Both the position numbers and the translations under genes were made by a program. The notes under the pieces are model-generated. The model was not told the origin of the DNA and did not search any database. It saw only the letters and a program-made list of their open reading frames with translations. DNA of 38,430 nt from a virus, in the IMG/VR virus record IMGVR_UViG_3300006733_000006, positions 1 to 38,430 of that record, one strand, 5' to 3'. Positions 1 through 38,430 of this stretch are shown piece by piece; position 1 is the first letter of the stretch; each line of letters begins with the position of its first letter.

Positions 1-123
1 CCGTGGCCATGCTCCATGGTGCCAGCGAGAGAGAAGTCCAGCTACTCTTGGGACATAGCACAGACCGGATGACGAAACGCTACACGGCCACCATAACCAG
101 TGAGAATGTGGTCGTCAGGCATA
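1..123. repeat. terminal direct repeat, left copy (circular junction)
   Basis: These 123 bases are identical to 38308-38430. The integrase frame that is open at the right end of the window continues in this copy to a stop at 159-161, so the duplication is best read as the overlap left when a circular genome was linearised by assembly. It is not a biological terminal repeat splitting a gene. The unique genome is then 38,307 bp. Confidence 0.9.
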
Positions 124-161
124 GCCAATTCTCACCAGTGGATAAGATGTACCTGAAATAA
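1..161 (+). CDS. int: tyrosine integrase, C-terminal part (continues from the right end of the window)
   Basis: This is the 3' end of the integrase that begins near 37575. The frame enters at base 3 and ends with TAA at 159-161. It encodes the last part of the catalytic domain, including the LLGHS segment (third conserved His) and the nucleophile tyrosine in RYTAT. After Tyr272 there are about 25 more residues, a normal tail length for this family. Read across the circular junction, the protein is 297 residues from the ATG at 37575. The gene is convergent with the degraded restriction gene that ends at 242. Confidence 0.9.
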   Translation, partial: VAMLHGASEREVQLLLGHSTDRMTKRYTATITSENVVVRHSQFSPVDKMYLK

Positions 162-1237: not shown

Positions 1238-3502
1238 TCACAACTTTACAGCCTCCAAAGAGTAATGTAGTTCAGGTTTCCCGGTGCCCTCATCAAAGAC
1301 TTCTAATTCCTGAATGGCTCTTACCAGGACGGTATGCTCTGTACCAAACCTATCGCCCAAAGTGCAAACCTTATCCCTTAAACCATCTATGAAAGTCCTT
1401 ATGGCGTCATAGCTATAGCTCGGAGTTGCAACATGATTACCCTTGAGTAATAAGCCATTAGCACATCTAACCGTATGCCTGAATCGGGATACCGAAGGAA
1501 ATATGGTCAATGCCTTCAGGTTGTGGTACTTCAGCACCGGCGGTACAGTATCGCTATCCCCGACAAAATCAAACCTCAGATTCATCATGGTTTCTTCAAT
1601 ATTCGTAAATGCCTCTGTCTGCTCAGGACTGGTATCCAGTTTCTTGAGCAGGTCAAAGCTAGCACCATCATCAGTAGAGTAATAAGCGTTTATGTAGTTT
1701 GTGCCTGACAAATTTAGAGACCTTGTAAAAAGCTCCAGCCACCTTTTATCTACCGCATAGAGCAGGCTCATGTATCTCGGTGTCCAGAGTGAACCGGCAG
1801 TATGAAATTTATAACCACTGTCAGCAGTGGCATCTTTGGTTACCGGTAGATAAACCTTGTAAACACTCTCTCCCGTAGCAGTTGAACCAAGATATAAGTA
1901 TGGTCTACCCTCTACACTAGAGACAAAAGCTATGGCAACACCAGTCAGGTCAATGCTTCTTATCTCATGCCAAATCCACCTTGTCCTACCCGAGATATAC
2001 TCCCACCTACCTGCCAGGATAGCTAAATCATTAGCCCCTCGCTCAATGATTGCATAGACCCACTGCTCATCATGCGCCCTGGCGACACACTCATAGGCAT
2101 ACTGTGATATACCGGGGGCTGAATCGGAAGGTGTTACTTCTGTGAGCGTAGAGCCGTCTATTTCCCATTCCTGCTGATTACCCATCCTGAAGTAGAGACG
2201 GTTCCTGAAGACATCGCTGTTTTTACCCGCATCAGCATGAGCAATTGTGACTAAAGAGGGGAATGGTTGCACAATAGCGCCGGCACCATCTTCATAATAA
2301 GGTCCATCCTCTTTCAGGCAGTAAAGATAGCCAAGGTAAGACTCCATATCGTTGACATCATAGGCAGCCTCACCGACCAGGATTTCGGCAGCCCAGGGAC
2401 CAGCGATAGGATCAGTAGCCTTCCTAATCTTGTTGGGTAATTTTAGTTGCCATAAGTCAGTACCCACCTTGCAGAAACTATCCGCTTCACCATTATCCAG
2501 GGCAGTTTGGGTAAAGTCTTCGGCAGCATCCATGTACCAGTATTTATTGGCTGCTGCTACAGCGATGTAAAGGTAATCATCAATAAAGGCTACAATGTCG
2601 GTGATGACTTGTGGTAAAGTATGAACGTGCTCAAACTCATCACCCGCTCCATTTAGTTTGGAAATCATATCCCCAGATGCAAAGTATATCTCGCCATTAA
2701 AATTGGCGAATGCCACCGGGGTCGGATTGGGGAATGTTGTCACTGTTAATGTAGCGTCATCAAAGTAAACATCTATTGGGTTAGTACTCCGTATCCTCAA
2801 TCTTAGTCTGGTTGCGGCATCATCTAATGTCCTCGTAACTGTAAGCTGTTTCCATGCTATGGAGGCGTCAGAGGTGCTAGTAACACCGACTCCATCATCA
2901 ATTTGTATGTAGGAAGTTCCAACACCGACACACTTTATCCAGCACTTAAAAACAAATTCCCTGCCCCTATAAGCACTGTTCCACGTAATATCCTGATAAG
3001 CCGCCGAGGGGTCTGTGCTGCCGACATGCCATGAATAAGTACCGCCATGCTTATCTACGTTACTACGTTCCGCATCACCATATTCAGTTGTCCAATCCGA
3101 GTCCAGCTCAAAGTCAGCATTAACTATTGTGGGGGTAGTTTTGACGGGTATTGTAACTGAATCTATCTTCGGTCCCGGATAAGCCTTACCCTTACACCTC
3201 AAGTCTACATTCTGGCTTCTGAGATAGCGCAGTATTTGAAACGCCGCATCATCCTCAACCTCAAACTCCAATGCCCCCAAGCCACCGTGCATATACCGGT
3301 GAGAAATTACCTTGGATATATCTGGGCTCAGATTGGCATAAGAAATATCACCTGCTGCAAAGCTGTCAGGTAAGGCTCTCTCGTCATCCCGGCGCCAGAC
3401 CTTGGTCTTATTACGGTTTTGAGCCAGCATAAACCCCAATTTGGTTGCCCCAGGTTCGATGTAGTAAATGTCGTACTTATTAAGAAGACTATCTATAGCC
3501 AT
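1238..3502 (-). CDS. large tail protein with carbohydrate-binding-like insert and propeller-like core
   Basis: The protein has 754 residues. Residues about 126-254 (from VNADFELDSDW to the FDDATLTV strand) look like a CBM4/9-type jelly roll, with an aromatic-rich face and the usual ending before the next domain. Residues about 260-640 consist of short repeated beta-strand units (YLYIAVAAANKYWYMD, YLYCLKEDGPYYED and similar) that suggest a beta-propeller or hub. The C-terminal 90 residues form a separate conserved-looking domain. The stop-start overlap TAATG with the preceding gene indicates coupled translation. By position (distal tail gene) and architecture it is probably a nozzle, hub or receptor-binding protein; T7 gp12 is a structural analogy only. 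Confidence 0.6.
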   Translation of the reverse strand: MAIDSLLNKYDIYYIEPGATKLGFMLAQNRNKTKVWRRDDERALPDSFAAGDISYANLSPDISKVISHRYMHGGLGALEFEVEDDAAFQILRYLRSQNVDLRCKGKAYPGPKIDSVTIPVKTTPTIVNADFELDSDWTTEYGDAERSNVDKHGGTYSWHVGSTDPSAAYQDITWNSAYRGREFVFKCWIKCVGVGTSYIQIDDGVGVTSTSDASIAWKQLTVTRTLDDAATRLRLRIRSTNPIDVYFDDATLTVTTFPNPTPVAFANFNGEIYFASGDMISKLNGAGDEFEHVHTLPQVITDIVAFIDDYLYIAVAAANKYWYMDAAEDFTQTALDNGEADSFCKVGTDLWQLKLPNKIRKATDPIAGPWAAEILVGEAAYDVNDMESYLGYLYCLKEDGPYYEDGAGAIVQPFPSLVTIAHADAGKNSDVFRNRLYFRMGNQQEWEIDGSTLTEVTPSDSAPGISQYAYECVARAHDEQWVYAIIERGANDLAILAGRWEYISGRTRWIWHEIRSIDLTGVAIAFVSSVEGRPYLYLGSTATGESVYKVYLPVTKDATADSGYKFHTAGSLWTPRYMSLLYAVDKRWLELFTRSLNLSGTNYINAYYSTDDGASFDLLKKLDTSPEQTEAFTNIEETMMNLRFDFVGDSDTVPPVLKYHNLKALTIFPSVSRFRHTVRCANGLLLKGNHVATPSYSYDAIRTFIDGLRDKVCTLGDRFGTEHTVLVRAIQELEVFDEGTGKPELHYSLEAVKL

Positions 3503-4977
3503 TATTCACCCCAGTCAACATAAGCATTATGGTCAACATAAGCATTATGGTCAAATTGCTCTACCATCTTTGGCATCCACAAGTTTCGGTATGTCGTGTA
3601 GACTGCTTCCCTGTATTTATTCGCCAATGCCTGTAACCTGTCCGTGTCCCCGCTACTGATGTCATTGGCTTGCCGTGTATAAAATTGGTAAGCCGCCTCA
3701 CAATAAAGCAGCCTGACTCTTCTATCCTCTAAGGTTATGGTATCGGTCGGGTCGGAGACCTCCTCTAGTTTACCTTTCGCCTCTATAATCCAGGTCTGGT
3801 CATCCACCGAAATACTCTCGGGGAAGTATATCTGCCTGTCTCCAGCTAGACTCTCGATGATTTCCCATTCCAGTTGGCGGGACCGCCTGGATACGCTATC
3901 CGCTTTTAAGCCCACCCAGATTACCCGGGCATTGCCTATGGTGGCACCGAGATTAAAATACTTGCCGGACTTAGCCACCACCTTTGCGTTAGCCGCTGTA
4001 GTGTAGGCATTGGTCAGATTAGCTGTCATCGTGAGCTTGTTTGTGGCTGCTGCAATAGACAAAATGGTGGCATCTTCAGAGGCATCATCATCTACAACCG
4101 TAACCTCTTGCCCGACAAAGAACAAGGTGTCATCGGTGATTTCTACTTCAGCTTGTGCGGCGGCCGCATCATCAGCCAGGTCATCCTGCCCCAGACTCTC
4201 AAAGACTATCTTTTTATAGAGCTTGGGGTAGATAGAAAGCAGGGCGTCATTTAGAGCATCTATAATATCCTGAACATTGCACTTGTGGATTTGAAACTCA
4301 CTGTCAGCCAGTGGTACGGAGGAAAAATCAAAGTAAGGCACAACCTTTCCGGCGTATATCGTAAGTGGTAAATGCCGGTTGTAATCCAGCCTTTCCTCAT
4401 TGGCCAAGAGAAGAACTGAAGCCAAATCGGTGGCATCTGCCAAGCTAATCAAATTGAATGTGTCAGAAACTACATGTACCCCTGCCTGACTTCGATGAGC
4501 ATTAAAATCAGCCTTAATTTCATTGGCCAGAGTTAAAGCAGAAGCCAGGTCATCAGCATCAGCAGAGGCAACAGCGTTAGCGCCATCAGCTCCAACGTGG
4601 ATTGCGGCATCTGCAATGTGAATATTATAGTCTGCCTTTATCTCATTAAGCAATGTTTCTACGGAGCTTTGGTCAGTGGCTGTATCCGCAGTTACTACAT
4701 TGGCTGTGTCTGCTGTTTCGTGAATCGTAAGACTGTCACGAAGGAAGTCCTGTATCTGCCTGATGTCCTCTTGAGCCGCCCCCGAAGTAATGTAAATCCA
4801 GAAGTTATCATTGAAGTAATCATCTGGATATTTGGCTAACTGCATATCGTAAAGGGCGTTCACCAATCCATTTGAAGAAGCTATACCATCTTGCGGAGTC
4901 CGGGGAATTTCCATCAGCTTGGTGAAATTCCCGAATCCTTCAATTAGAACCGAAAGTGCTATCGTATTTTGAGCCAT
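3502..4977 (-). CDS. tail/adaptor-region virion protein with internal 45-residue repeats
   Basis: The protein has 491 residues. Residues about 85-205 contain three degenerate repeats built on LxNEIKADxNxH followed by HV-D-N-V and ADADDLAS. Such helical repeats are seen in many phage fibre and tail proteins. The middle (about 230-420) is beta-rich. The C-terminal 80 residues are helical (YCEAAYQFYTRQAND, ALANKYREAVYTTYRNLW) and could dock on another tail or portal-ring protein. The extreme C-terminus carries a duplicated DHNAYV, produced by an 18-bp tandem duplication at about 3513-3548. It overlaps the next gene by TAATG. The exact role is unknown; a tail or head-tail connector protein is inferred from the repeats and position. 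Confidence 0.55.
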   Translation of the reverse strand: MAQNTIALSVLIEGFGNFTKLMEIPRTPQDGIASSNGLVNALYDMQLAKYPDDYFNDNFWIYITSGAAQEDIRQIQDFLRDSLTIHETADTANVVTADTATDQSSVETLLNEIKADYNIHIADAAIHVGADGANAVASADADDLASALTLANEIKADFNAHRSQAGVHVVSDTFNLISLADATDLASVLLLANEERLDYNRHLPLTIYAGKVVPYFDFSSVPLADSEFQIHKCNVQDIIDALNDALLSIYPKLYKKIVFESLGQDDLADDAAAAQAEVEITDDTLFFVGQEVTVVDDDASEDATILSIAAATNKLTMTANLTNAYTTAANAKVVAKSGKYFNLGATIGNARVIWVGLKADSVSRRSRQLEWEIIESLAGDRQIYFPESISVDDQTWIIEAKGKLEEVSDPTDTITLEDRRVRLLYCEAAYQFYTRQANDISSGDTDRLQALANKYREAVYTTYRNLWMPKMVEQFDHNAYVDHNAYVDWGE

Positions 4978-4987
4978 AGTTTACTCC

Positions 4988-5209
4988 TTATATTTCTACT
5001 TCAGGTTCGCAGGGTAGCCCCTCATCATGCCGGCAAATATGGTAAGATGCCCTAACCGTCATCTCCTCGTTTACGTTGCCCTCATTGATTTTTGAGGCAA
5101 AGGACTTGAGCTTCTTGATATTCTTCTTTATCTCAGGCAAACTTGATTCCAATGCGCTGGGTATCGGTTCTTTCACCGCAAGGCAAATTCTGAAGAAGAT
5201 GTAACTCAT
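4988..5209 (-). CDS. small protein of unknown function in the tail region
   Basis: The protein has 73 residues beginning MSYIFFRICLAVKE. I chose the ATG at 5209 over the one at 5224 because its A is shared with the TAA stop of the LamG gene (TAATG), the coupling arrangement used repeatedly in this operon. The middle is a lysine-rich helix (EIKKNIKKLKSF). The C-terminus is acidic and has CRHDEGLPCEPE, whose two Cys and one His are too few for a clear zinc site. It is not recognised. Its place among tail genes suggests a minor virion or assembly factor. Confidence 0.55.
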   Translation of the reverse strand: MSYIFFRICLAVKEPIPSALESSLPEIKKNIKKLKSFASKINEGNVNEEMTVRASYHICRHDEGLPCEPEVEI

Positions 5210-5907
5210 TAACGATACCTCCATTTAGTAGCCAAATAAATATTCTGGACTTCGATAAGACTTACAACTCGATTATAAACCCATACCTCTCCGAAAGTAC
5301 CATTAGCAGGAATGTCACCCTCCTCTCTATCGCCGATTAGAAGAGATACTGTATTGTCTATTGTTAATCCCCCCAATGTATCCTCTGAGGAGGTACTTGC
5401 GAAAACTGCATCGTTTCTATATATAATTACACCAGCCGATGCTCCCCCACCATCATAGGTGAAACCGACTAACTGGAATACATCCTGGGTAATGGCAGCA
5501 TCAGAATCTACAACTATTCTTTTCCGTGCTATTACATTAGTATTGATAATGGAAGCGGTTAACTTGCCAGCATTAGTCTGTAGGAATGCGTACCCCCTAA
5601 AAACATTTGCCACAGTTATCTTGGTGACCAATGAACTCCATGCTGTAGTATCAGACGGCTTGAACCACATCAATATTGAGAACGGGGTATTATGCTCGAA
5701 ACTAAACTGAGCCTTGTCACCGCAGTCTATCTTGTCATCCCCATCAAAAGCCCTACCCTGAATTCCCCATGGAGCACCCGTAGCCGTACACAGATGCCCG
5801 TAAGCATCCTTTGACATAAAGGACGCGCCATCAAGCTTATAAAGTGGCAAATAGAGCACCAAACTAGGGTCATAGAAAAACCCCTTCGGGTTTGCTAGTC
5901 TTTTCAT
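5209..5907 (-). CDS. LamG/concanavalin-A-like lectin-domain virion protein
   Basis: The protein has 232 residues, nearly all one LamG-like jelly-roll domain: a YLPLYKLDGA opening strand, then GRAFDGDDKIDCGD, FSILMWFKPSD, a central block of strands, and the closing GTFGEVWVYNRVVSLIEVQNIY, which is the typical end of a LamG_3 domain. Such domains bind glycans and are common in phage tail-tip and decoration proteins. The start follows TAGAGGG. It lies 1 bp from the upstream virion gene and overlaps the following small gene. A host-surface binding role is inferred. The glycan is unknown. Confidence 0.75.
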   Translation of the reverse strand: MKRLANPKGFFYDPSLVLYLPLYKLDGASFMSKDAYGHLCTATGAPWGIQGRAFDGDDKIDCGDKAQFSFEHNTPFSILMWFKPSDTTAWSSLVTKITVANVFRGYAFLQTNAGKLTASIINTNVIARKRIVVDSDAAITQDVFQLVGFTYDGGGASAGVIIYRNDAVFASTSSEDTLGGLTIDNTVSLLIGDREEGDIPANGTFGEVWVYNRVVSLIEVQNIYLATKWRYR

Positions 5908-5908
5908 T

Positions 5909-6373
5909 CTAGTACCCTCTATAAATGACCTTCACATAGCTTGAGTTCTTGGTCTTGCCCTTTGCCGTCTCACCACCAGCCCCACCAGACTTAATCATCA
6001 GCCTTATCTCCAGTGGAAAAGCATTTAAGTTTTCCTGCGGTTCGACTCTGCCACTATAGGTGTATTCCTTCAAAGCGGAAGCATCGGCCGCATAGGTAAT
6101 CTCAGTATGCAAATCTACCCAGGTGCTACTTGATGTCTGACGTGCCTGCCACTTGAAAAGCACACTTTCCAAGGTACTACTCGATTGAATGGCGCAGGTC
6201 AAACCAAACTCGAACTCTTGAATCGCACCCCTGACCGGTGGATCAATCTTTACCTTCTCTACTTCTTCGTAATCATCGGTAGTTGTGGTAAGTAAATCAC
6301 TAAACTGCACCCCATCCGCTGTCAGACTACCCCTTGCAAACGGATGCTCAACGTGCTCAATAATCGACTCCAT
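5909..6373 (-). CDS. virion-region protein of unknown function
   Basis: The protein has 154 residues, starts after a strong AGGAGGT site, and is almost all beta-strand by eye (VRGAIQEFEFGLTCAIQSSSTLESVLFKWQAR). It has a glycine-rich loop near the C-terminus (KSGGAGGETAKGKTK) and ends in YVKVIYRGY. The length and beta content would suit a small jelly-roll tail or decoration protein. No family is recognised. It lies directly before the LamG gene and is likely co-translated with it. Confidence 0.55.
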   Translation of the reverse strand: MESIIEHVEHPFARGSLTADGVQFSDLLTTTTDDYEEVEKVKIDPPVRGAIQEFEFGLTCAIQSSSTLESVLFKWQARQTSSSTWVDLHTEITYAADASALKEYTYSGRVEPQENLNAFPLEIRLMIKSGGAGGETAKGKTKNSSYVKVIYRGY

Positions 6374-6425
6374 AATTTACCTCCTCCTTGATTCAATCTC
6401 GAGAAATGATGCCCGTGCGAAATCC

Positions 6426-6536
6426 TTATTCCAAGGCCTCGGTTATCTCTCTACGATACCATTCCATCCGTATCTCTTCCTCCACGTTGCAGAAGAGTTT
6501 ATCCAAGACCCTAATTAATTGCTGAATTATCCACAT
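6426..6536 (-). CDS. 36-residue small ORF with strong ribosome binding site
   Basis: A short frame (MWIIQQLIRVLDKLFCNVEE... ending EITEALE) sits in the gap between two virion genes. It is preceded by AGGGGGGAGTG ending directly at its ATG, which is the main reason to call it. The N-terminal half is amphipathic and hydrophobic, the C-terminal half acidic and helical. It could be a small membrane-active or chaperone-like peptide. The function is unknown. Confidence 0.45.
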   Translation of the reverse strand: MWIIQQLIRVLDKLFCNVEEEIRMEWYRREITEALE

Positions 6537-6563
6537 CACTCCCCCCTCTTAGGTCTCCTATCT

Positions 6564-7112
6564 TTACTCAATCAAGTTCAGTGCTTTGCTAAATTCCTTA
6601 TTATTTAAGGCTTCTTTCAAGGCTTGCTGTCTTTTATAAGTCGGCTCTTGTTTTTCTTCTTCAGTCAATATCCAGTTGGTCTCTGGATGCTTCCATGTGA
6701 ATATCCAGTCTGTCTCCATCCATTTCCTTAGCCAGTAATCAAAACGCTTAGATGCACTATCATCTATGTCATACTTTATAGCAAGGAAACTTAGCATACC
6801 ATCATACACATCGTGGCGACACCCAAAAGAACCAAAGGACGTATCATGTGCCAAGACATCATCTCGCAGGTCAATAATCAAGCGAGAATTATGTTTATTG
6901 ACATCTTTGTGCGTGGGGTGAGGTACTTTCTTCATCTTGTGGGCAATTTTTATGAGCTCTAGTCCTACCCCAATGAATTCAAAGAACGTAGCAGACCTGC
7001 CAATCCTACCAAACTCCTGGAGTAGTGCAAAGCTCCTTACTATTGGACGCAGGATTTCCTCAACCCAGAATTTTTGTATAGCTTTGGTGGTATATAAATT
7101 AGCAGCCGGCAT
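6564..7112 (-). CDS. HEPN-like protein inserted between capsid and tail genes (moron candidate)
   Basis: The protein has 182 residues and is all-helical by eye. Residues 83-89 read RDDVLAH, the R-x(4-6)-H motif of HEPN ribonuclease domains, in the usual setting at the start of a helix (NSRLIIDLRDDVLAHD). The context resembles AbiU2/AbiV-type HEPN proteins, where this motif forms the RNase site. It starts after a good GGAGG site and is separated from the capsid genes by a 12-bp perfect hairpin, so it may be expressed differently from the structural genes. A toxin, exclusion factor or anti-host RNase is an inference. A structural helical protein with a chance motif is the alternative. Confidence 0.5.
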   Translation of the reverse strand: MPAANLYTTKAIQKFWVEEILRPIVRSFALLQEFGRIGRSATFFEFIGVGLELIKIAHKMKKVPHPTHKDVNKHNSRLIIDLRDDVLAHDTSFGSFGCRHDVYDGMLSFLAIKYDIDDSASKRFDYWLRKWMETDWIFTWKHPETNWILTEEEKQEPTYKRQQALKEALNNKEFSKALNLIE

Positions 7113-7135
7113 AGAAACCTCCGAGTAGTATTGAC

Positions 7136-7169
7136 TAGGGCAGAGCCCTAAAATAAAGGCTCTGCCCTA
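7136..7169 (-). terminator. 12-bp perfect hairpin between decoration and HEPN-like genes
   Basis: TAGGGCAGAGCC (7136-7147) and GGCTCTGCCCTA (7158-7169) form a perfect 12-bp stem with a 10-base A-rich loop. It lies 23 bases before the HEPN-like start codon. There is no run of T after the stem on either strand, so it is more likely an RNA-stability, attenuation or processing element than a full intrinsic terminator. Confidence 0.55.
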
Positions 7170-7199
7170 CATATTTACCGTTGTCTAGCTTACCCTGTC

Positions 7200-7655
7200 T
7201 TAGCTTTCATTGTATCTGAAGCCGAAAACGAATACCTCTATTAAGCCAGCCGTGGTAAGTGTGCCACTCTGCTCTAGCTTCAGTTCTTTGCCAGCAGAAG
7301 TGTAGACCTTCCATGACCCGGTATGGCAAGCGGTTACTTTATCAACAAGGTATGCGCCTCGTTCTGCTCCAATATCCCCGTATACGGTATCAACGGCTGT
7401 ACCACAAAAAGCACCAGCCAGAATAAAGCCATTGTCATCATCATCGTCTCCGATTATGAGGTTAGATGCGGCGCCAGCACATGCTGTCTTGATTTTAGCA
7501 AGCACCATAGTGATGATAGTGCCTTCGGGTATGTTCCAGATATTTTTCGCTGTGTCAGCCGCTAGTTCTGGGGTTACCTCGAACACTTCAGCAAAGGGAT
7601 ACAGGATGCCATCAGGATTAAGCGTAGATAGCGGTGTTGCTGGTTGAGTAGTCAT
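7200..7655 (-). CDS. capsid decoration/head-associated protein (probable)
   Basis: The protein has 151 residues and lies directly after the major capsid gene, the usual slot for a decoration or stabilising protein. It is beta-rich and contains a run of five aspartates (GDDDDDNGF) that could bind divalent ions. It ends in an aromatic strand (IEVFVFGFRYNES). No N-terminal signal or TM segment is seen. The start has GGGAAGGAG upstream. The function is inferred from position, size and composition, and no family was recognised. Confidence 0.5.
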   Translation of the reverse strand: MTTQPATPLSTLNPDGILYPFAEVFEVTPELAADTAKNIWNIPEGTIITMVLAKIKTACAGAASNLIIGDDDDDNGFILAGAFCGTAVDTVYGDIGAERGAYLVDKVTACHTGSWKVYTSAGKELKLEQSGTLTTAGLIEVFVFGFRYNES

Positions 7656-7695
7656 CTTACGTTTTTCTCCTTCCCTCTTAGATTTTTACCTTTTA

Positions 7696-8634
7696 CTATG
7701 TGGCATCAAAGCCAATCAACGCCGCTACGCTGACGGAGCAGAATAGTGCCAGTGACGGATACCACTTGACTCGGGTCCGGGTAGCGTCCTTCGTCTCCAG
7801 GGAACCTATCGGTTCAACCACTATACCACCTGGTGATTGCAGACCGGCCAGAGCACCTTCACCCAGCCTTACGGCGTAGATAACAGACTCATCGCCGCCA
7901 GTGGTGGCAGATTCAACATTATCTACTCCGGAACCTGTAGTCAGATGGGTGTCAAGCTGCCAATCAGTCAGCCAGAATGGGATACCATTGTAGATAGTTA
8001 AGAAGTTGCCAAAGTTGTCCTTATCGTTTTCCAGCTCGAATCCCGCAGCCCGGGTGATGTCTTGAATCAGTCGCCTTGACCTCTTGGACATAATAAGAGC
8101 ATCGGGCTTGCCACCCTTCACGGCATCAATAACCTCGTCCAGCTTTGCTAGGGTAAGGGCAGCTCCACCGGCGGTGCCGATTGAAATAAGTTGGTCGCTG
8201 GCGGTGGTGAGGTCAATCATCTTTCTCAGTCCGTCAAATTGCTTCGGGTTTGTCGCTGAGTCGCCATAGAGGAACATCTCCTCAAACTTATGGCGTAGTG
8301 CCTTTGCCTTCAACTGAAGCACTGCTGCTTCCAAATCTTGCAGATTGGAGCGAGTCGCTTTCAGGAAGTTGTCAACATCGGCGTCTCCGCCCATAATCTT
8401 CAGAGATGCCGTTATCTGGGTGAAGGTCGGTGTGGACTCAACCCAGGTGTCGCCAACATCATAGAAATCAATGGTTGGCAGAGCAAGTTCCCGGTTAAAA
8501 GTCAGCCCGTTACCGACAATATCAATGAAAGGCAAATTCTGAAGAATAGGAGAATCTTTGATTATTTCCTCGATGACACCAACAAGCAAAACATCGTTTG
8601 ACAGCTTGCTTGCCTCTACTAAATTTGTAGCCAT
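7696..8634 (-). CDS. major capsid protein, HK97-fold type
   Basis: The protein has 312 residues. It has the look of the encapsulin/HK97-fold capsid family without a cleaved delta domain: an N-terminal region leading to ILQNLPFIDIVGNGLTFNRE, an E-loop-like strand region (WVESTPTFTQITASLKIMGGDADVD), a long spine helix (LEAAVLQLKAKALRHKFEEMFLYGD), then PDALIMSKRSRRLIQDI and a terminal GALAGLQSPGGIVVEPIGSLETKDATRTRVKWYPSLAL strand block. The gene follows the scaffold gene with AAGGAG before the ATG. It is the shell subunit of the virion. Confidence 0.85.
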   Translation of the reverse strand: MATNLVEASKLSNDVLLVGVIEEIIKDSPILQNLPFIDIVGNGLTFNRELALPTIDFYDVGDTWVESTPTFTQITASLKIMGGDADVDNFLKATRSNLQDLEAAVLQLKAKALRHKFEEMFLYGDSATNPKQFDGLRKMIDLTTASDQLISIGTAGGAALTLAKLDEVIDAVKGGKPDALIMSKRSRRLIQDITRAAGFELENDKDNFGNFLTIYNGIPFWLTDWQLDTHLTTGSGVDNVESATTGGDESVIYAVRLGEGALAGLQSPGGIVVEPIGSLETKDATRTRVKWYPSLALFCSVSVAALIGFDAT

Positions 8635-8654
8635 CGGATTGTCTCCTTATTAAA

Positions 8655-9416
8655 TTATTGATTTTCTCTGGCTTCTTGAAGACCTAACTTCATCTTGTCT
8701 CCGGGCTTCAACTCACGCCAGTCTTGAGCTGCCCCCGGTGTTGCTGTGATGATGGGGATTTTCCCATCCTTGTCTTTTTGAGCTTTCGCAGGGTCAGGCT
8801 CAGTGGTCTCTTCAGGTTTAGCAACCCGCATCGCTGAGACGGCTGTTTTAACAGCTATCTTGGTCAGCCTAAGAGCCTCATCGGGTTGACCTTTATCCCA
8901 GGCCTCTCTAGCTGTCTTCAATTCTTCACTTTGTGGGTTTAGACCAGCTATGTCGGCCTGATCCACGATTTCGGTATAAATTTTAGTGACCTTATCGTGG
9001 TATGCTTTTTGCGTTGCCTGAGATTCCCTAGCCTTCGTAATCCTTGTCTGCATTGCCTCATTGTCAACCGCGGTCTCACTCATAATGTCGGTAAGGAGAG
9101 TTAGAGTTTCTCCGTGTTGATTGATGCTACCCCGCATCTGCTCAATAGAATTTACAACACCCTGATAATCGGTCTTCTCAGCCTTGAGAGCGGTAAAGTC
9201 CTCTACAGTTCTTTCGTGTATGCCCTGTAGAGTCTTATATTTCTGCTCCCAATCCTCTGGTTTTGATTTGCCCTTACCTTCCTCTGTTTCAGGCTTTGCG
9301 CCTTTCGGTCCCTCTGGTTCTTCTACAACTGCGGGTGCTTGTTTGCCTTCAGTAACCTCAGCGGCGCCTTTCCCTTCTTCAGCCTTGGTCTTGGCTTCCT
9401 CTTCTGGGTCTGGCAT
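8655..9416 (-). CDS. capsid scaffolding protein
   Basis: The protein has 253 residues, very acidic and Lys/Glu-rich at the N-terminus (EEEAKTKAEEGKG...), with a long predicted coiled coil in the middle (about 60-150) and a basic C-terminal segment (ELKPGDKMKLGLQEA). This composition and the position immediately before the major capsid gene are typical of scaffold proteins, which drive shell assembly and then leave. No protease motif is visible, so the scaffold may exit intact. It starts after TAGGAGG and is the first gene after the terminator at 9437-9463, so transcription of scaffold and capsid may be set apart from the upstream genes. Confidence 0.75.
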   Translation of the reverse strand: MPDPEEEAKTKAEEGKGAAEVTEGKQAPAVVEEPEGPKGAKPETEEGKGKSKPEDWEQKYKTLQGIHERTVEDFTALKAEKTDYQGVVNSIEQMRGSINQHGETLTLLTDIMSETAVDNEAMQTRITKARESQATQKAYHDKVTKIYTEIVDQADIAGLNPQSEELKTAREAWDKGQPDEALRLTKIAVKTAVSAMRVAKPEETTEPDPAKAQKDKDGKIPIITATPGAAQDWRELKPGDKMKLGLQEARENQ

Positions 9417-9436
9417 GTAAAACCTCCTAAAAATTA

Positions 9437-9463
9437 AAATAAAAAAAGCCGTATTTCTACGGC
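9437..9463 (-). terminator. intrinsic terminator between Com-like and scaffold genes
   Basis: On the minus strand, GCCGTA-GAAA-TACGGC makes a 6-bp stem closed by a GAAA loop, followed immediately by TTTTTTTATTTTA. That is a textbook rho-independent terminator. A third TACGGC/GCCGTA copy at about 9483-9488 allows an alternative longer stem, which could work as an anti-terminator. It sits inside the virion operon and should lower transcription from the polyvalent gene into scaffold and capsid, or mark a second promoter just downstream. Confidence 0.8.
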
Positions 9464-9534
9464 GTCTAAGCGCACATAAAAATACGGCTTCTAAAGAGCA
9501 CTACTTATTCAATTATTAAGATGCTAGTTTCACC

Positions 9535-9723
9535 CTAGCAAATCTGTTTTACTTTGTCAAGTGCCACTAATTCATGGCTTTTATATGTCTTCGGCAGAGA
9601 GTCCGTCTCAAATATATTGAAATGATTGCAGCGTGTGCAGATAATCTCCAAATAGCCATTGAGTTTGACTGCCAGTTTCTTATTGCAGTTATCACACCTG
9701 AGCGTTCCATCAGATTCAATCAT
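9535..9723 (-). CDS. Com-like zinc-ribbon regulator
   Basis: The protein has 62 residues with two CxxC knuckles (CDNC at about 10-13 and CTRC at about 30-33), spaced with LEI before the second one as in Mu Com and its relatives. Com is a small zinc protein that binds RNA or DNA and activates translation of the mom modification gene. Relatives are common in phage head gene clusters. The start overlaps the end of the giant gene (ATGA), so translation is coupled. It is followed by a strong terminator. A regulatory or nucleic-acid-binding role is inferred from the family. Confidence 0.65.
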   Translation of the reverse strand: MIESDGTLRCDNCNKKLAVKLNGYLEIICTRCNHFNIFETDSLPKTYKSHELVALDKVKQIC

Positions 9724-12700
9724 TGCCTCTCTCGATTTACCCTACTTTTGATATTAAGTCTAACCCCACCAAGCGGGGGTGCCGTTGGTTGAGTTCTCAC
9801 GGCTGGCCTACCAGATGCCCCCCAGGCGCGCGGTGCTGGTGCCATTCTAGCCTCACCACCGGATAATCTGGGTAATATTATCGCGGGTATACCCCTTTGC
9901 TGTAGCAGCTCTAAAGCCAACCTTCTGGCTGCCGCGGTCTGCGGAACCGTTATCCTTCCCATTATCAATAGCCAAGCCTCAACGGTTGGATTGGCTCGCC
10001 TGTATTGCAATCTGGCCTTACCTTCAGGCTGGTCGTAATACTCATCTACAATGTCCCTACCCCTTGATTGTATTTCGGCCAATATTCTGGCCGCTGGCGG
10101 TAATTTCCTGAGCCACCTGTCCTTATTACGCAACACATATTGTCTGGTCCCGTCATCCAGCGAATCAAGAAATGACTTGGTTCTATCTTCGGTAGCATCC
10201 CAATTCGGCACGCCGGCAGTTACTACCGGATTATTACGAATGTCCCAATATCTTGAAAGAGCAGCGTCTTCAGGTGTCTCATATTTATCAAGCCACTTCC
10301 TAAAGTCTTCCGCTTGTCCAGGGTCGAGAAAGCCCTCTATGTAATTCATTGCCCACCGCTTACCTGTCATCACACGCCTTAAATATTCCTCTTGAGATAA
10401 GTAAGTCGGATAGTCAATTTGCCCGGATATGAGGCTTCTAGCTGCGTCCTCGATGCCGGCGTGATAAATCGCCTCAGCCTGCTTCTCGGTTGATTGCAGA
10501 GCTACCTCAAACTCATCGCCACGCTCCCATGTCATCTCATCTCTAGCCCTATCAGCCAGGACTTTATAATCGGTATGTTGCTCCTCAATTTTATCCTTCT
10601 GTTCTCTATTGAGTTTATCCCATCCCTTACTAAATTCCTTATTGGCATATTCGTCTCTCTTGTCTTTGGCTTTATTCCACTCGCTCTGAGGAAAGGCTCT
10701 CAGGCCCAGAAGTTCAGCACCCACCCGTTTATACTTCCCCTCCTCTTCACTCGGATGTCTGGTAATTAGATTAGCCATCGCAATAGTTAGAAGATACTGA
10801 GAAAAATTATGAAACCACTCACTAGGTTCGTCTAACTTTTTGCCAAGATAATCCCTACCCTCAATGATTTCACGGCCAAAGCCCACTAAAGGTGAAGTCC
10901 TGCTCATTACCCATTGCAGAAAGTCATTCTCTCGCCAGTTCAATGACAAGAGCTTTTCGGGGTCTTCCTCAGTGACCGCATTAACGGCTGCCAACATTCT
11001 AATCGTGGAATACCAGAAGCCGGGCAAGCCGATGGTACTATTGCCAATCTTAAAGGCCATAAAATCAGCCCCGTCACCGCCTAGAGACTTAGGCGCAGGA
11101 TTCAATCTGGGTTCCTGTCCTAACGCAACACAAAGCGATGTATAGCCCAGAAATCCGCCCGCAACCATACCCGCCATAGCTTTGCGAACTTCACTACCCG
11201 TCTTGGTGCCTCTGAATAAATCCCTCATTACCATTAAGTAAGCCCTGGTATATCTAGGGGCAAACAAAGTGGCACTCTCCAGAGCCCGCCTAGTGGCACT
11301 CACTCCTAGTTCTCTGGAAGACACTACCCCGGTAAGTTTATTAGCGAACTCACCCAATTCAGGAAGTTTATATCCTTCGGCTTCCCAAGCACCTCTAAGC
11401 CCCTTCCATATCTCACCCCTAGCTACCATGCCAGCCGTGCTAAAGCCGGCACCGGCTCGCCCATAAGTTTGCTTTATTAAGCTACCGAGAAAGGGACCTA
11501 CTAATGGTAATTGACGAGTCCTAGCCTCTAATGTGCCTGCCTGGATAAACTCGGCCTGCCTCTCCATGATAACGCCGAACTCAGCCATCGCTTTAGCCTC
11601 AGCAGGATTCTTCAGCACCCATTCGTCAGCATACTTGGGATTAGCCATTGTCTTTATCATTGCCCTAGTTGCTTTGACCCAGACAAAAGAGGGTTTACCC
11701 TGCGCCCATCGTGCTATATCATAGCCTAGCGGCAACATTCCCTGGATGAATGACCAGGACAAGTCTAATGCAGCCTTGATGGTAACGCCCATCCGGGCGA
11801 AACCAGAAGCTACTTGAAGCACAGAATTAACCCTTTGCGGTCCGTATATATCCATTATCTTTTCAGCCACGGCACGACCGGTCATCACAACTCTGCCTGT
11901 TTCATCCTTTATATCGGTGAATATCCTGTTTCGCCAAGCCGGTAAATCAACCCTGCCCTCCGTAAGAGTAGCGTGAGTGGCACGATATTTAGCAGCTTGC
12001 CAATCAGGTTTGAGTGTTCTAGCATCAGCCCTAAGCGCGATTAAACGCTCATTGATATTCTTCACAAGCCTGTCCATAGACAGTTCTGCTTCAAACTCAG
12101 AGACAAACGGCTCTACGGCTTTTCTTGTCTCCAATTCGGCAGCCCTAGCTTCAGGAGTTAGTGTCCGAATATAAGCGTCATACTCTAAGGTGCCCGGGGT
12201 TGGCTTCATTCCTTCCGGCAACGGCTCTCTAGGAGTTACCTCAACCGGCGGTCGCTTGGCTACTTTGGGGACTTCAGGCACGGCGGCTTTTTCAACGATT
12301 TGTGAAACTGCCGGTTTCAATACCGCAGATTTAGGCACAACCTCGCCTAAAATCGAACCTAGTATCTCTTCCCGCGCCATAGCAAACATACCAGGCATCA
12401 TCGCTTGTCCCGGTGGTGGCTGTGCCATCGCTTGATTAACATATTCCCGTATGAAATCCCTTATCTGAGTAGCTGACCTCGACCGCTTATTTAATTCCTT
12501 CATCAGCGCTTGCTGAATTGGTGAAGCCCCGCCCTCAAAAAGCGATGGTTGCATGAAGGCTTCAATGGGTAGATTATTAGCCTTTGCCCTGAGAAACCGA
12601 TCCGCAGCCTCAGCTATATCAAGCGAAATATGGTATTCGTCTTTGACAATTCCCCGCTGGATACCGCCAGCTAATTTAGCAAGGTCGCCGGCTACACCAG

Positions 12701-15419
12701 CCAATCCAGCTATCACCATCTTATTGGAAGGCAATACCGTTTCGATATTGAGTTCGGCTAACCTCAAGCCAAATCTGCCCGGAAAAGCCTTAGCCAGGAT
12801 TGCGTTAGATATTCTGCTAACCCCTGTCCGGCTCACACCACCTTGGGTAGTCAGAAATTGAGCCCTTTCTGTCTGTGGAACATTAGCCAAGAATTTCTTA
12901 ATGAAGTCACTATTGGCAAGGTCCATCAAGGCATCTTCTATTGTTTCCTTTCCCTCTATCTGCAATCTCTCCAATGCTGCCTCGGGAACTAATCTGGCGT
13001 CTGCGAAAGCCAACTCAACCGGACTCATTAAGGCACTGATGCTCTCATTCGCTCCTCTAGCGAAGGAGGCTCTATCAGCAACCTCAGTGATTCTCCGCCG
13101 AATCAGGACCGGGGATTTCATTGCTTTGATTGTCGCCGGGTCTAGACCATAAATATGAGCAGTGGCTTCCAATTGACCTCTATAGGCAGCGTAACGCTCG
13201 GGGCTACTTTCAATAGCCCTTCTGATGGCCATAATTCTGGCGTTACCACTCTCCACCACGCTGTCAGAGGCTACAAGCATCGAACCGCTATCCAGCCTGT
13301 GGGTATCAACCAATAGTGCTTCAGGGTCGAGGTCTCTACCCATTCTTTCTATCTGGTCTCTTGAGATAGCTCTTTCCCTGAGCCGGGGTTGTAGCTCTCT
13401 AGGGAATTGCGGATTGATGGTATAAGCCTCAGTATGAGATGCAATCAGAGTATCGGATTCTACTGCCTCAAACTTAAACTCATATTTGCTTCTCGGGTCG
13501 GCACCAACGGCTACTGTCTTGCCTGTGCCAACCTCACTGGCGACTCTAGTTTTAGAAACGGTTGCGGCTTCTACCTCAATGGCCAGGCGGCTTTGCAGAC
13601 TTGCCACCTCCCTATGTAAATCACTAAGCTCTTTGCCCCGCCTATCGCTCTGTGCCCTCAATACCATTTCCGCGTCCGGGCTTATCTTGCCCACACGGGC
13701 TAGAACAGTTTTAGATAATTTTGCTCCGCGTCCTGCTTGGTCTGCTATGCCCTGGACAAACTTCAAATCTGCTATGGCTTCAGTAATAGCTACTTTCTGT
13801 GCCTGCAAACCTTCATCCATTAGCTGACTTGGTATTTTACCAAGGTCATCAAGAATTGTCTTACCCCGTGCTGCTATCTCCATGTTATAGATTTCACGGA
13901 TGAAAGTATCCATTACCTCGTCTTGTGGAGCATACTGGAAACCAGCCTTGATACCACTCATCTGATTAGTGAATTTTTTAGGTCTCAATGAAGGCGTTAT
14001 AGTACCTGGCCTTTCGCCGGTGGCAAAAAGCCGTTTAGCGATGATTTCCACACCAGTCTTAGGGTCAACCTTGCCTATTACTCTTGTTGGTATAAAATTC
14101 GGGGTAACTTCAATACCGAATTCCCTCAGTTGCTCAACATAAGCTCCACCGTGTTCCACGGCCGCCTGAATAGCCCTTCTATAGTCTTCAGCGTAATGTT
14201 TAGCTTTCTGTCCTTGAATGGTAAGAGGCCAGTTATAGTTTTGAGGCTTCGACAAAACATCGGCTGCCGCCATACTACCACCCTGAACTTTAGGGGTGAG
14301 CCCCGGCAAAGCAACTAAATCATGGGTTAATTTTGTCCCCTTGATTTGAATTGACTTAATCCCGAGCAGGTCAGACATACTTCCGTAAGTCGTATTCATC
14401 CAGCCTACCGATGCTCTTAAAGAACTGTCTCTAACCTCCTCATCTACCAGCTTTACCCGATTGACCTCCTCAAATATCTGTTGCACATAGTTACCTTTCC
14501 TTAACCTTTCAGGATGGCGAATTCTGGTATCTATCAAGATTTCCTCAATAGGTCTCAAATCAGGCATCTGTATCTCTTTAGGTCGGAGTAATTTGGCGAC
14601 CACCTTGCCACCAATTTTAATAGGCGTTGTAATAATTTTGGCTGCACCCTTCTCCAGTAGCACATACGGCGTGAGAGCTTTTGCCCCCACTTTACCGACA
14701 GTTCCAAATTTACCAAGCATAGATGCTATTCTACCCATAGGTGGTAACAAGAACCAGGGAATAAGCTCTATACCGCCTCTTAAATATTTAGGAGCTTCCC
14801 ATTCCTCATAGGCTTTTCTGAATTCGCCACCGGGCATTAACTCTTTAATGAATTTCAGCGGGCTCTCAATAGGCAACTTGTCCTGCTCATATCCTTTCTC
14901 CAGCCACGCACGTTGAAACTCTGGCGTTTGGGATTCCCACCATGTTTTCTGCCACCCGGGAGTAGTTACCGCTATAGAAAAGGGTTTGGCTACGTATTCA
15001 TGGAATAATTCAAATGGCTTGAAAAGATAGCCTAGCCCCTGCACACCCCAGATACCTAATTGCTGGAAGGCTTGACCGTACTCTTCCCATGTAGTAGGCT
15101 GTCTTGGTGTAAATTGACCTGTAGTGGGGTCAATAGCGCCGATCTGGTCTTTACCCCGCCAAACAGTATTATCCGGTCTTATCCATGCCTCCGCTTGCTC
15201 ACCCGTAGGTGTCTCAAACATAAGCGGGCGGTTATAATCTATCGCACCCCCAGTTGTTGGTGCCCCAAGTGCGGTGGCAGTCGGTCTCTCAAATGGAGAA
15301 GGCACACGCATCATAGGCTCTCTCGCTGGAGCTGGTGCCGGTGTCGGCATTTCCTCTCTCAGCGTGAAGTGTCGTTTACCTACCCTTACCGTCCCAGGCT
15401 TTTCTCTTTCAGTTACCAT
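9720..15419 (-). CDS. giant polyvalent-type virion protein with ParB/DdrB-like region
   Basis: The protein has 1899 residues, the largest in the genome. It has a Pro-rich head (1-50) and a hydrophobic stretch at about 220-262. At about 640-770 there is a region resembling the DdrB-like ParB domain of polyvalent proteins (VDTHRLDSG followed by VVESGNARIMAIRRAI). A Pro-rich linker lies at about 1000-1080, a second hydrophobic glycine-rich segment at about 1405-1435, and a charged helical C-terminal third. Polyvalent proteins of this kind (described by Iyer, Burroughs and Aravind) are thought to enter the host with the DNA and blunt defence. The gene sits between the portal and scaffold genes, where internal or ejected virion proteins are often coded. 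The start has GAGGTAAGCAATG. A tape-measure protein is unlikely from position and composition. Confidence 0.65.
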   Translation of the reverse strand: MVTEREKPGTVRVGKRHFTLREEMPTPAPAPAREPMMRVPSPFERPTATALGAPTTGGAIDYNRPLMFETPTGEQAEAWIRPDNTVWRGKDQIGAIDPTTGQFTPRQPTTWEEYGQAFQQLGIWGVQGLGYLFKPFELFHEYVAKPFSIAVTTPGWQKTWWESQTPEFQRAWLEKGYEQDKLPIESPLKFIKELMPGGEFRKAYEEWEAPKYLRGGIELIPWFLLPPMGRIASMLGKFGTVGKVGAKALTPYVLLEKGAAKIITTPIKIGGKVVAKLLRPKEIQMPDLRPIEEILIDTRIRHPERLRKGNYVQQIFEEVNRVKLVDEEVRDSSLRASVGWMNTTYGSMSDLLGIKSIQIKGTKLTHDLVALPGLTPKVQGGSMAAADVLSKPQNYNWPLTIQGQKAKHYAEDYRRAIQAAVEHGGAYVEQLREFGIEVTPNFIPTRVIGKVDPKTGVEIIAKRLFATGERPGTITPSLRPKKFTNQMSGIKAGFQYAPQDEVMDTFIREIYNMEIAARGKTILDDLGKIPSQLMDEGLQAQKVAITEAIADLKFVQGIADQAGRGAKLSKTVLARVGKISPDAEMVLRAQSDRRGKELSDLHREVASLQSRLAIEVEAATVSKTRVASEVGTGKTVAVGADPRSKYEFKFEAVESDTLIASHTEAYTINPQFPRELQPRLRERAISRDQIERMGRDLDPEALLVDTHRLDSGSMLVASDSVVESGNARIMAIRRAIESSPERYAAYRGQLEATAHIYGLDPATIKAMKSPVLIRRRITEVADRASFARGANESISALMSPVELAFADARLVPEAALERLQIEGKETIEDALMDLANSDFIKKFLANVPQTERAQFLTTQGGVSRTGVSRISNAILAKAFPGRFGLRLAELNIETVLPSNKMVIAGLAGVAGDLAKLAGGIQRGIVKDEYHISLDIAEAADRFLRAKANNLPIEAFMQPSLFEGGASPIQQALMKELNKRSRSATQIRDFIREYVNQAMAQPPPGQAMMPGMFAMAREEILGSILGEVVPKSAVLKPAVSQIVEKAAVPEVPKVAKRPPVEVTPREPLPEGMKPTPGTLEYDAYIRTLTPEARAAELETRKAVEPFVSEFEAELSMDRLVKNINERLIALRADARTLKPDWQAAKYRATHATLTEGRVDLPAWRNRIFTDIKDETGRVVMTGRAVAEKIMDIYGPQRVNSVLQVASGFARMGVTIKAALDLSWSFIQGMLPLGYDIARWAQGKPSFVWVKATRAMIKTMANPKYADEWVLKNPAEAKAMAEFGVIMERQAEFIQAGTLEARTRQLPLVGPFLGSLIKQTYGRAGAGFSTAGMVARGEIWKGLRGAWEAEGYKLPELGEFANKLTGVVSSRELGVSATRRALESATLFAPRYTRAYLMVMRDLFRGTKTGSEVRKAMAGMVAGGFLGYTSLCVALGQEPRLNPAPKSLGGDGADFMAFKIGNSTIGLPGFWYSTIRMLAAVNAVTEEDPEKLLSLNWRENDFLQWVMSRTSPLVGFGREIIEGRDYLGKKLDEPSEWFHNFSQYLLTIAMANLITRHPSEEEGKYKRVGAELLGLRAFPQSEWNKAKDKRDEYANKEFSKGWDKLNREQKDKIEEQHTDYKVLADRARDEMTWERGDEFEVALQSTEKQAEAIYHAGIEDAARSLISGQIDYPTYLSQEEYLRRVMTGKRWAMNYIEGFLDPGQAEDFRKWLDKYETPEDAALSRYWDIRNNPVVTAGVPNWDATEDRTKSFLDSLDDGTRQYVLRNKDRWLRKLPPAARILAEIQSRGRDIVDEYYDQPEGKARLQYRRANPTVEAWLLIMGRITVPQTAAARRLALELLQQRGIPAIILPRLSGGEARMAPAPRAWGASGRPAVRTQPTAPPLGGVRLNIKSRVNRERQ

Positions 15420-31900: not shown

Positions 31901-31928
31901 TACTTCTTTCCTCCATGAGAACAGCCGT

Positions 31929-32000
31929 TAGCGGGTGAGGGAGTCGAACCCTCTCCTCCGGCTAATGGGGCCAGTGACTTAACCGTTTGTCCTACCCGCG
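31929..32000 (-). tRNA. tRNA-like gene with CAU anticodon loop
   Basis: Read on the minus strand, the sequence folds into a cloverleaf: acceptor CGCGGGT/ACCCGCT with a C1-U72 mismatch, a 3-bp D stem (GAC/GTC) around AAACGGTTAA, a 5-bp anticodon stem CTGGC/GCCGG with loop CCCATTA (anticodon CAT), a 4-base variable loop and a perfect T arm GAGGG-TTCGACT-CCCTC. Odd points are C in place of the usual U at position 33, A at position 8 and no encoded CCA. The CAU anticodon would read Met (or AUA if modified). A mismatched 1-72 pair is also seen in bacterial initiator tRNA. It could be a functional phage tRNA or a degraded one. Confidence 0.6.
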
Positions 32001-32014
32001 ACCAAACCAGCTAA

Positions 32015-36637: not shown

Positions 36638-36657
36638 ATGGAGATATTTTTCTCCAT
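36638..36657. promoter_or_regulatory. operator-like palindrome between cro- and cI-like genes
   Basis: ATGGAGA (36638-36644) and TCTCCAT (36651-36657) are perfect 7-bp inverted arms with a 6-base AT spacer. It lies in the intergenic switch region, next to the -35 box of the leftward promoter, so binding of the CI- or Cro-like dimer is the natural reading. Confidence 0.6.
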
Positions 36658-36686: not shown

Positions 36687-37298
36687 ATGTTAAAAATGGG
36701 GAAAGAGACAGTAGGTCAAAAATTAAGGTTGTTGAGGGATAGTAAGGGTTTAAGCCAAAGACAGATGGCTATGCGCTGCGGTCTTGATAGGGGTTATATA
36801 AGTCAATTGGAATCCGGCAAAACTGAAAGCATCACATTGAGAACGGCAGAGACTTTGGCAAAAGGATTAGATATGCCTGCCACTGTCTTCTTTGATAAAG
36901 AGACCCCAGAGGATATTCTGGAGCGTCTCAGGTTAGCTCAACCGATAAGCATCCCGGTCTATACCAAGTTCCCCTTTCCCGGTGGGGAATTGACAGATCC
37001 CTTAGAATATGTGTATCGGGAAAGAAAAAACAATCCTTACAAGAATGTGGAGGGGTATTTAGTTAAAGGATATAGTCTTCAGCCAGATATTCAGGATGGC
37101 GATGTAATCATTGTTGAGCGGGATGGGCAGATAGACCCTGGTAATATCGTGGCTTGCTTATACCATAGCGGGCTGCATTTAGGACGTTTGAGGAAGATTG
37201 ATGGAAAAATGTATCTTGAAACCAATGAAAGAAGAATGAATTTTCAATGTTTTCAGTTTGCAGCTCCGGTCATTGAGGTAATAAGAAGGCTGAAGTAA
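36687..37298 (+). CDS. CI-like repressor: XRE helix-turn-helix plus S24-like domain
   Basis: The protein has 203 residues. The N-terminal HTH (LSQRQMAMRCGLDRGYISQLESGK) is followed by a linker and an S24/LexA-like C-terminal domain (EGYLVKGYSLQPDIQDGDVIIVERDGQIDPGNIVAC). The Ser of the dyad is at S130. The Lys, expected at the xKRL position (GLHLGRL), is Gly166, and no obvious Ala-Gly cleavage site lies in the linker. It may therefore be a repressor that cannot cut itself, using the domain only for dimerisation. AGGGGGTGG precedes the start. Confidence 0.8.
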   Translation: MLKMGKETVGQKLRLLRDSKGLSQRQMAMRCGLDRGYISQLESGKTESITLRTAETLAKGLDMPATVFFDKETPEDILERLRLAQPISIPVYTKFPFPGGELTDPLEYVYRERKNNPYKNVEGYLVKGYSLQPDIQDGDVIIVERDGQIDPGNIVACLYHSGLHLGRLRKIDGKMYLETNERRMNFQCFQFAAPVIEVIRRLK

Positions 37299-37313: not shown

Positions 37314-37426
37314 GGCTGCCTCCTAACCGCAAAGGCTCGCTTTTAGCTTCTTTAGATGGGGTTCAGGTGGTCGCAGGTTCAAATCCTGTCACCCCGATTT
37401 TGAAGCTAAAAAGCGGTTAGGCAGCC
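37314..37426. other. attP: tRNA 3'-end identity segment inside a large inverted repeat
   Basis: A tRNA 3' half is recognisable in the + direction: T stem 37373-37377 and 37385-37389 around TTCAAAT, then CACCCCG (37390-37396) and discriminator A at 37397. No 5' half is present, so this is not a gene but the identity block of an attachment site for a tRNA gene. It lies in the loop of an inverted repeat: GGCTGCCT...TAACCGC...TTTTAGCTTC (37314-37350) pairs with GAAGCTAAAAAGCGGTTAGG and CAGCC (37402-37426). It lies directly before the integrase, as expected for attP. Confidence 0.7.
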
Positions 37427-37439
37427 GAAAAATATCGTG

Positions 37440-37569
37440 CTAGAACACATGAATTACCAAAAACCCCAGATACAAGTCGTATCTGGCCTAGAACACATGA
37501 ATGCTCAAAAAAGGGGTTCTCTTCCACTAGGTTCTCAGATAGGCTCGCTATCTGCTCTAGAACACATGA
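37440..37569 (+). repeat. three in-frame CTAGAACACATGA repeats upstream of the integrase
   Basis: CTAGAACACATGA occurs at 37440-37452, 37488-37500 and 37557-37569. The spacings are 48 and 69 bp, both multiples of three, and all are in the integrase frame, which stays open back to 37409. The second and third copies are each preceded, 2 bases upstream, by a perfect hairpin of the form CAGATA-N7-TATCTG, with loop sequence differing. Each repeat holds an ATG that would start the integrase. Confidence 0.8.
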
Positions 37570-37574
37570 TTGCC

Positions 37575-38430
37575 ATGGGAGACCTTAATGGCCAACTAAA
37601 AGCCTTCCTGCTTTCCTGTAAAGTGGATGAGCTGACACCAGCCACTCTAGCTGACTATGAGCAGAAGATTGGCGCTTTTGTCCGCCACTGCACTGAGATA
37701 AACATTAGTCAGCCTGGAGATGTCAATGTCAGCCATGTCCGTATGTTTCTACTGATACTCCAGGAGCGATGCAGCCCCCATTCGGTCCACGATTACTATG
37801 GCTGTGTCAAGCGATTCTTTAACTGGCTTGTCTCTGAGGGAGTTTTGCCGGCTAATCCAATGGCTAATATGCGCTCCCCCCGGGTGCCCAAAAAAATCAT
37901 CCGCCCCTTTACGGCTGAGCATATCAGGGATCTGCTGCTCCTGTGTGATGAGAGTAGATTTCTAGGAGTAAGAAACCGAGCCATCATCCTGACTTTTGTG
38001 GATACCGGTCTGAGGCTTTCCGAGCTGGCCGGCATCCAGTTGAAGGACATTGATTTTGACAGAGAGATGATTAAGGTCATGGGCAAGGGAGCCAAAGAGA
38101 GGGTCGTAGGCATTGGCAAGGGAGCACAGAAGGCGATACTCAGGTATCTATTGATAAGAAGAGACAATCATCCCTGTCTCTGGGTGACTGAGGAAGGCAG
38201 ACCGATGCAGGCCATGGGTATCCAGATAATGATTAGAAGGCTGGGGAAAAGAATTGGAATAGCAACGGTCAGGTGTTCGCCACATACTTTCAGACACACC
38301 TTCGGGACCGTGGCCATGCTCCATGGTGCCAGCGAGAGAGAAGTCCAGCTACTCTTGGGACATAGCACAGACCGGATGACGAAACGCTACACGGCCACCA
38401 TAACCAGTGAGAATGTGGTCGTCAGGCATA
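37575..38430 (+). CDS. int: tyrosine integrase (continues at base 1-161)
   Basis: From ATG 37575 the protein is 297 residues across the circular junction. The N-terminal core-binding domain (about 1-105) resembles XerC/D-type enzymes. Catalytic residues are R147 in TGLRLSELAG, a Lys in GKGAKERVV (171 or 174), H237 and R240 in HTFRHT, H263 in LLGHS and Y272 in RYTAT, all present. It integrates and excises the phage at attP, just upstream. The start is uncertain: ATGs at 37449, 37497 and 37566, inside the three repeats, are in frame and would add 42, 26 or 3 residues. No clear ribosome site precedes any of them. Confidence 0.9.
   Translation, partial: MGDLNGQLKAFLLSCKVDELTPATLADYEQKIGAFVRHCTEINISQPGDVNVSHVRMFLLILQERCSPHSVHDYYGCVKRFFNWLVSEGVLPANPMANMRSPRVPKKIIRPFTAEHIRDLLLLCDESRFLGVRNRAIILTFVDTGLRLSELAGIQLKDIDFDREMIKVMGKGAKERVVGIGKGAQKAILRYLLIRRDNHPCLWVTEEGRPMQAMGIQIMIRRLGKRIGIATVRCSPHTFRHTFGTVAMLHGASEREVQLLLGHSTDRMTKRYTATITSENVVVRH

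Follow-up and report, generated by a model that had tools for sequence, protein, structure and literature searches.

What do the repeats at the 5' end of this integrase gene encode: protein, DNA sites or an RNA control element? In the window (the whole 38,430-nt stretch analysed here), the 13-bp box CTAGAACACATGA occurs in three exact copies, all in the integrase frame (Table 1). The spacings, 48 nt between boxes 1 and 2 and 69 nt between boxes 2 and 3, are multiples of three, and every copy reads CTA GAA CAC ATG and supplies an in-frame ATG. The last two copies follow a perfect CAGATA-N7-TATCTG palindrome, with loops that differ at 7/7 bases. An earlier, sequence-only reading of the locus was accurate on all these points; it offered as explanations a multi-start translational control leader, an N-terminal extension with LEHM repeats, and integrase arm-type sites that also code.

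We judge it marginally probable that the coding 5' end of a tyrosine integrase here overlaps the right arm of attP, the boxes being putative protein-binding sites as well. The coding status of the repeats is well supported, and we infer the protein-binding role of the boxes, the identity of the binder and its effect on recombination or on int expression.

Integrase gene and attachment site

The end of the window record is a 123-bp direct repeat of its start, and contig L002 spans the junction of the two ends; the window is therefore a circularly closed phage genome. The phage is complete and temperate. Window positions 2071-15242 (13,172 bp) recur with 100% identity in a contig from a second metagenome (IMG/VR 3300009127_000123). 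The phage also carries a tRNA-Met gene (anticodon CAT; 31927-32001, minus strand).

The plus strand carries, in order, a CI-like repressor gene, the attachment site and the integrase gene. A second HTH gene is divergent from the repressor gene, and the palindrome ATGGAGATATTTTTCTCCAT at 36638-36657, between the two, is a candidate operator. The boxes and N7 palindromes were considered as CI operators and rejected, since the interval between these two genes contains no such palindrome and no good box.

Table 1. Features of the repressor-attP-integrase region in the window
Feature	Position	Strand	Remark
CI-like repressor (HTH_3 + S24)	36687..37298	+	same strand as attP and int, upstream of both
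Left inverted-repeat arm of attP core	37314..37350		pairs with 37402-37426 apart from indels
attP core, 42 nt	37356..37397	+	bacterial tRNA-Pro(GGG), anticodon loop to discriminator base
Right inverted-repeat arm	37402..37426		non-coding; 20 nt GAAGCTAAAAAGCGGTTAGG identical in L133
Integrase (XerC/D-like tyrosine recombinase)	37437..38430	+	from first in-frame start GTG
Integrase C-terminal end past circle junction	1..161	+	end at about 161; 123-bp terminal repeat
Repeat box 1, CTAGAACACATGA (LEHM)	37440..37452	+	exact copy; aligns with L133 box 1
Palindrome before box 2, CAGATA-CAAGTCG-TATCTG	37467..37485		
Repeat box 2, CTAGAACACATGA (LEHM)	37488..37500	+	exact copy
Palindrome before box 3, CAGATA-GGCTCGC-TATCTG	37536..37554		
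Repeat box 3, CTAGAACACATGA (LEHM)	37557..37569	+	exact copy; directly before core-binding domain

As in tRNA-type attachment sites, the attP core is identical to the 3' portion of a tRNA gene. Specifically, the 41-mer from 37357 is found exactly in three bacterial genomes, always inside a tRNA-Pro(GGG) gene, and ATGGGGT (37356-37362) is the 7-base anticodon loop of this tRNA and likely the crossover region. The core matches many phage records at about 90%, Giles among them; among the matches listed for the core, the rest of the region is unmatched beyond a few flanking bases. An inverted repeat with arms of about 25 nt flanks the core, its score being reached by none of 5000 shuffles, and a shorter form of it flanks the core of the relative L133 described below. 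These arms may be better candidates for true arm-type sites than the boxes, which lie just to the right of the core. On this map, the tRNA gene restored by integration would lie immediately upstream of int, and int would be parted from the repressor gene.

The integrase frame has a stop at 37407, is open from 37410 and has its first start, GTG, at 37437. The protein, 343 aa as read in L002, contains domains PF00589 and PF13495/PF02899 and aligns with tyrosine recombinases at the catalytic residues R150, K174, H240, R243, H266 and Y275. Homologous XerC/D-type integrases begin about where box 3 ends. The N-terminal extension measures 20-43 aa. In a predicted structure of low confidence (pLDDT 64.9, pTM 0.37), this extension is disordered except for a helix at residues 35-47, which contains the third LEHM; the first two units are in the disordered part. 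By Pfam, neither the window integrase nor that of L133 has a recognisable canonical N-terminal arm-binding domain, and the integrase is thus not an obvious binder of the boxes.

A single relative and the coding status of the repeats

Searched one protein at a time, the integrase, terminase and repressor led back only to the phage or to nothing of use, apart from one additional match to the repressor at 24%. Terminase and repressor found no close relative, unlike the major capsid protein (window 7696-8634), which has >240 relatives in IMG/VR, the best 80 mostly at 66-80% identity. The records of these best 80 of >240 yielded, besides the phage itself, a single integrase at 29%, and the integrases in 379 genomes of one phylum were at most 36% identical. 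A search of viral contigs for the tRNA core was no more informative, and Rfam gave nothing over its curated cut-off. A DNA-pattern search with the repeat found the phage itself and nine other contigs, unrelated by eye. An unrelated viral contig (L019) carries at 5540-5640 tandem units GCGCAAGATAGAACACNT, a different array with the common word TAGAACAC.

The sole relative found, L133 (IMGVR_UViG_3300011118_000016), was retrieved with a degenerate DNA pattern for the motif PHTFRHTFGT and is the basis of all between-phage comparison. Its integrase is 68-69% identical to that of the window. The repressor-attP-integrase order is the same: upstream is a related repressor gene, and the shared tRNA-Pro core carries a compensated change in the T-stem. 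The L133 integrase reads MVLEHITKQNYQIGNLSELEHIIALGDLDGQL; it has two LEHI units 48 nt apart, compared with three LEHM in the window. In the window, boxes 1 and 2 are the same distance apart, and the two phages align without gaps from the core to box 2. The window phage thus has one extra unit, of 69 nt. Both L133 boxes differ from all three window boxes by the same two changes (A6G and G12A), the second of which turns the repeat ATG into ATA. LEH is kept in every copy of both phages.

L133 bears directly on whether the repeats are translated. Its ATG 6518, upstream of both repeats, is the only ATG, GTG or TTG before the core-binding domain. Because no such codon follows, the L133 repeats must be translated, barring a very rare start. 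One could instead suppose that the window integrase starts at ATG 37566 or 37575, the repeats being attP sites only and the open frame across them a product of chance. Such a start would agree with where homologous XerC/D-type integrases begin, with the poor codon usage across the extension, which ranks at the 3.6th percentile of in-frame stretches, and with the Shine-Dalgarno sequence missing at every upstream start; indeed, it is missing at 5/5 possible int starts (37437-37575). We nevertheless consider this explanation improbable, since L133 has no usual start codon there and must read through its repeats, since the probability of finding the frame open and all three boxes in phase by chance is 0.026, and since the substitutions are of the coding type. 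Specifically, differences between the window and L133 fall on codon positions 1/2/3 as 1/2/7 in the third-unit region and as 6/5/11 in the first 22 codons. This third-position bias suggests selection on the extension at the protein level. Of the proposals in the earlier reading, the N-terminal extension with LEHM repeats is thus the one that the relative supports.

The same comparison argues against control at the RNA level, in which the hairpins and repeated starts would act as a translation leader, either multi-start or hairpin-regulated. The window mRNA can fold into two hairpins, and int lacks a Shine-Dalgarno sequence, whereas a clear one precedes nearly every other gene of the phage. But ATA replaces ATG in both L133 repeats, a Shine-Dalgarno sequence is missing at all in-frame starts in the window, and the L133 hairpin contains an A.C mismatch and is weak (-2.9 kcal/mol, against -10.3 and -7.6 in the window). 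RNA pairing is therefore not conserved. The idea that pairing is kept while sequence changes holds for a single pair: in the two palindromes compared, the six outer pairs are identical, and pair 7 (C-G vs G-C) is the sole compensatory change. Stem bases that are fixed around a free spacer suit an RNA hairpin less well than a double-stranded palindrome. On the strength of the ATA codons and the weak L133 hairpin, we reject the multi-start or hairpin-controlled leader and regard it as very improbable. Alignment with a related phage, proposed earlier as a check and here made with L133 alone, finds the LEH motif kept and the hairpin weakened by a mismatch.

A probable constraint beyond the protein

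Chance cannot account for three exact 13-mers inside 130 bp. Even at up to two mismatches the window has no other sites (shuffles average 0.86 such sites), and the exact box is found nowhere else in either phage. Likewise, the mismatch-free CAGATA-N7-TATCTG occurs at two sites only in the window, and none precedes box 1. The spacer of the palindrome has the length of the 7-base anticodon loop. As core-type Int sites, however, the palindromes were rejected, their arms (CAGATA/TATCTG) being unlike the core arms (CACCTGA/TCAGGTG) by eye.

How the units arose is suggested by copy 2, whose left side is like copy 3 and right side like copy 1, the mark of a tandem duplication. The earlier argument that covarying hairpins make a duplication less likely does not hold, given this mosaic, the mismatched L133 hairpin and the L133 array that is one unit shorter.

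A duplication alone might account for the repeats: an in-frame tandem duplication in the integrase extension, its DNA having no special role. Such an account would explain the smaller unit number of L133, the two-sided likeness of copy 2, the third-position bias and the alignment of the units at the protein level. It explains less well why unchanged blocks lie beside blocks without any match. Between window copies 2 and 3, 25/25 positions match in the box and palindrome arms and 0/9 between them, a pattern of two runs (P=5.5e-5). Against it as well are the Leu codon CTA in 4/5 boxes, a rare codon that makes up 12% of Leu codons, the identical GAA/GAG synonymous state of the boxes within each genome, and the disorder of the first two units in the low-confidence model. 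We therefore regard a purely coding role as rather unlikely.

The uniformity of the boxes within each genome is what would be expected if binding sites and their protein changed in step. It is not proof, as copying between units (recent homogenisation) could produce the same uniformity. In the third box-palindrome, 6/8 codons are identical between the phages against a background of 38%, a small excess. Of the proposal that integrase arm-type sites also code, the coding part thus stands in L133, and the DNA-site part is plausible from the nucleotide pattern.

The reading that we favour, a coding integrase end overlapping the attP arm, would have two sides. As protein, the repeats would be an N-terminal extension before the core-binding domain, built from a tandem unit of 16-23 residues (LEHM...QI..xS), to which an in-frame tandem duplication probably added one unit in the window phage relative to L133. 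As DNA, the 13-bp box, probably together with the palindrome, would be a putative protein-binding site in the right attP arm. Its putative binder, for which the integrase, a directionality factor and another phage regulator are candidates, might act in the integration/excision complex or in the control of int. The further proposal, that attP-arm sites are written in the first integrase codons and change in concert within each phage, is more tentative, and we hold it possible, if not probable.

If this reading is true, the same bases answer to DNA-binding specificity and to the N-terminal protein sequence, and a site gained by duplication automatically lengthens the protein. Attachment site and integrase would then be coupled, and co-evolution of site and protein would be testable by synonymous recoding. 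Otherwise, the locus holds an ordinary tRNA-Pro integrase whose N-terminal extension is repeated. Together with L133, the attP core and int give a usable description of the integration system of an uncultured phage group.

Comparison with known integration systems

Lambda-type arm sites are bound by an N-terminal arm-binding domain and lie on both sides of the core. Pfam finds no such domain in the window and L133 integrases, and the same sites do not recur across the core: the box is absent to the left of it in both phages, and a different inverted-repeat pair flanks it. We do not file the boxes as lambda-type arm sites because the arm-binding domain is lacking and the boxes lie on the int side only; by analogy, they may work like such sites, or serve a directionality factor or an int regulator. 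The attP regions of CrimD, Pixie, Giles and L5 (PMC3203893) are like the window in having a tRNA core beside int and short repeats near the core, and the tRNA-Pro core of Giles matches that of the window. In the arm-type sites of CrimD and Anaya, some positions are uniform within a genome and differ between related phages (PMC3203893). The window differs from CrimD, Pixie, Giles and L5 in that its boxes lie on the int side only, inside the 5' end of the int coding region, and in that its integrase has no recognised arm-binding domain.

In KplE1, attL overlaps the promoter of intS, and IntS and TorI repress int (PMC2951348). The window is arranged similarly: its tRNA core (37356-37397) and the int start (37437) share a strand, so that both point the same way, and the right arm of att runs into the start of int; binding there could therefore control int. 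Unlike in KplE1, the repeats come after the first start codon, inside the coding region. In phages with integration-dependent immunity of the BPs type (PMC4557955), repressor, attP and int adjoin as in the window. There, attP is inside the repressor gene, whereas the window core starts at 37356; attP follows the stop codon of the repressor gene (37298), and integration would therefore leave the repressor at full length. The arrangement is thus unusual but not a new kind; it is a variant of a known one.
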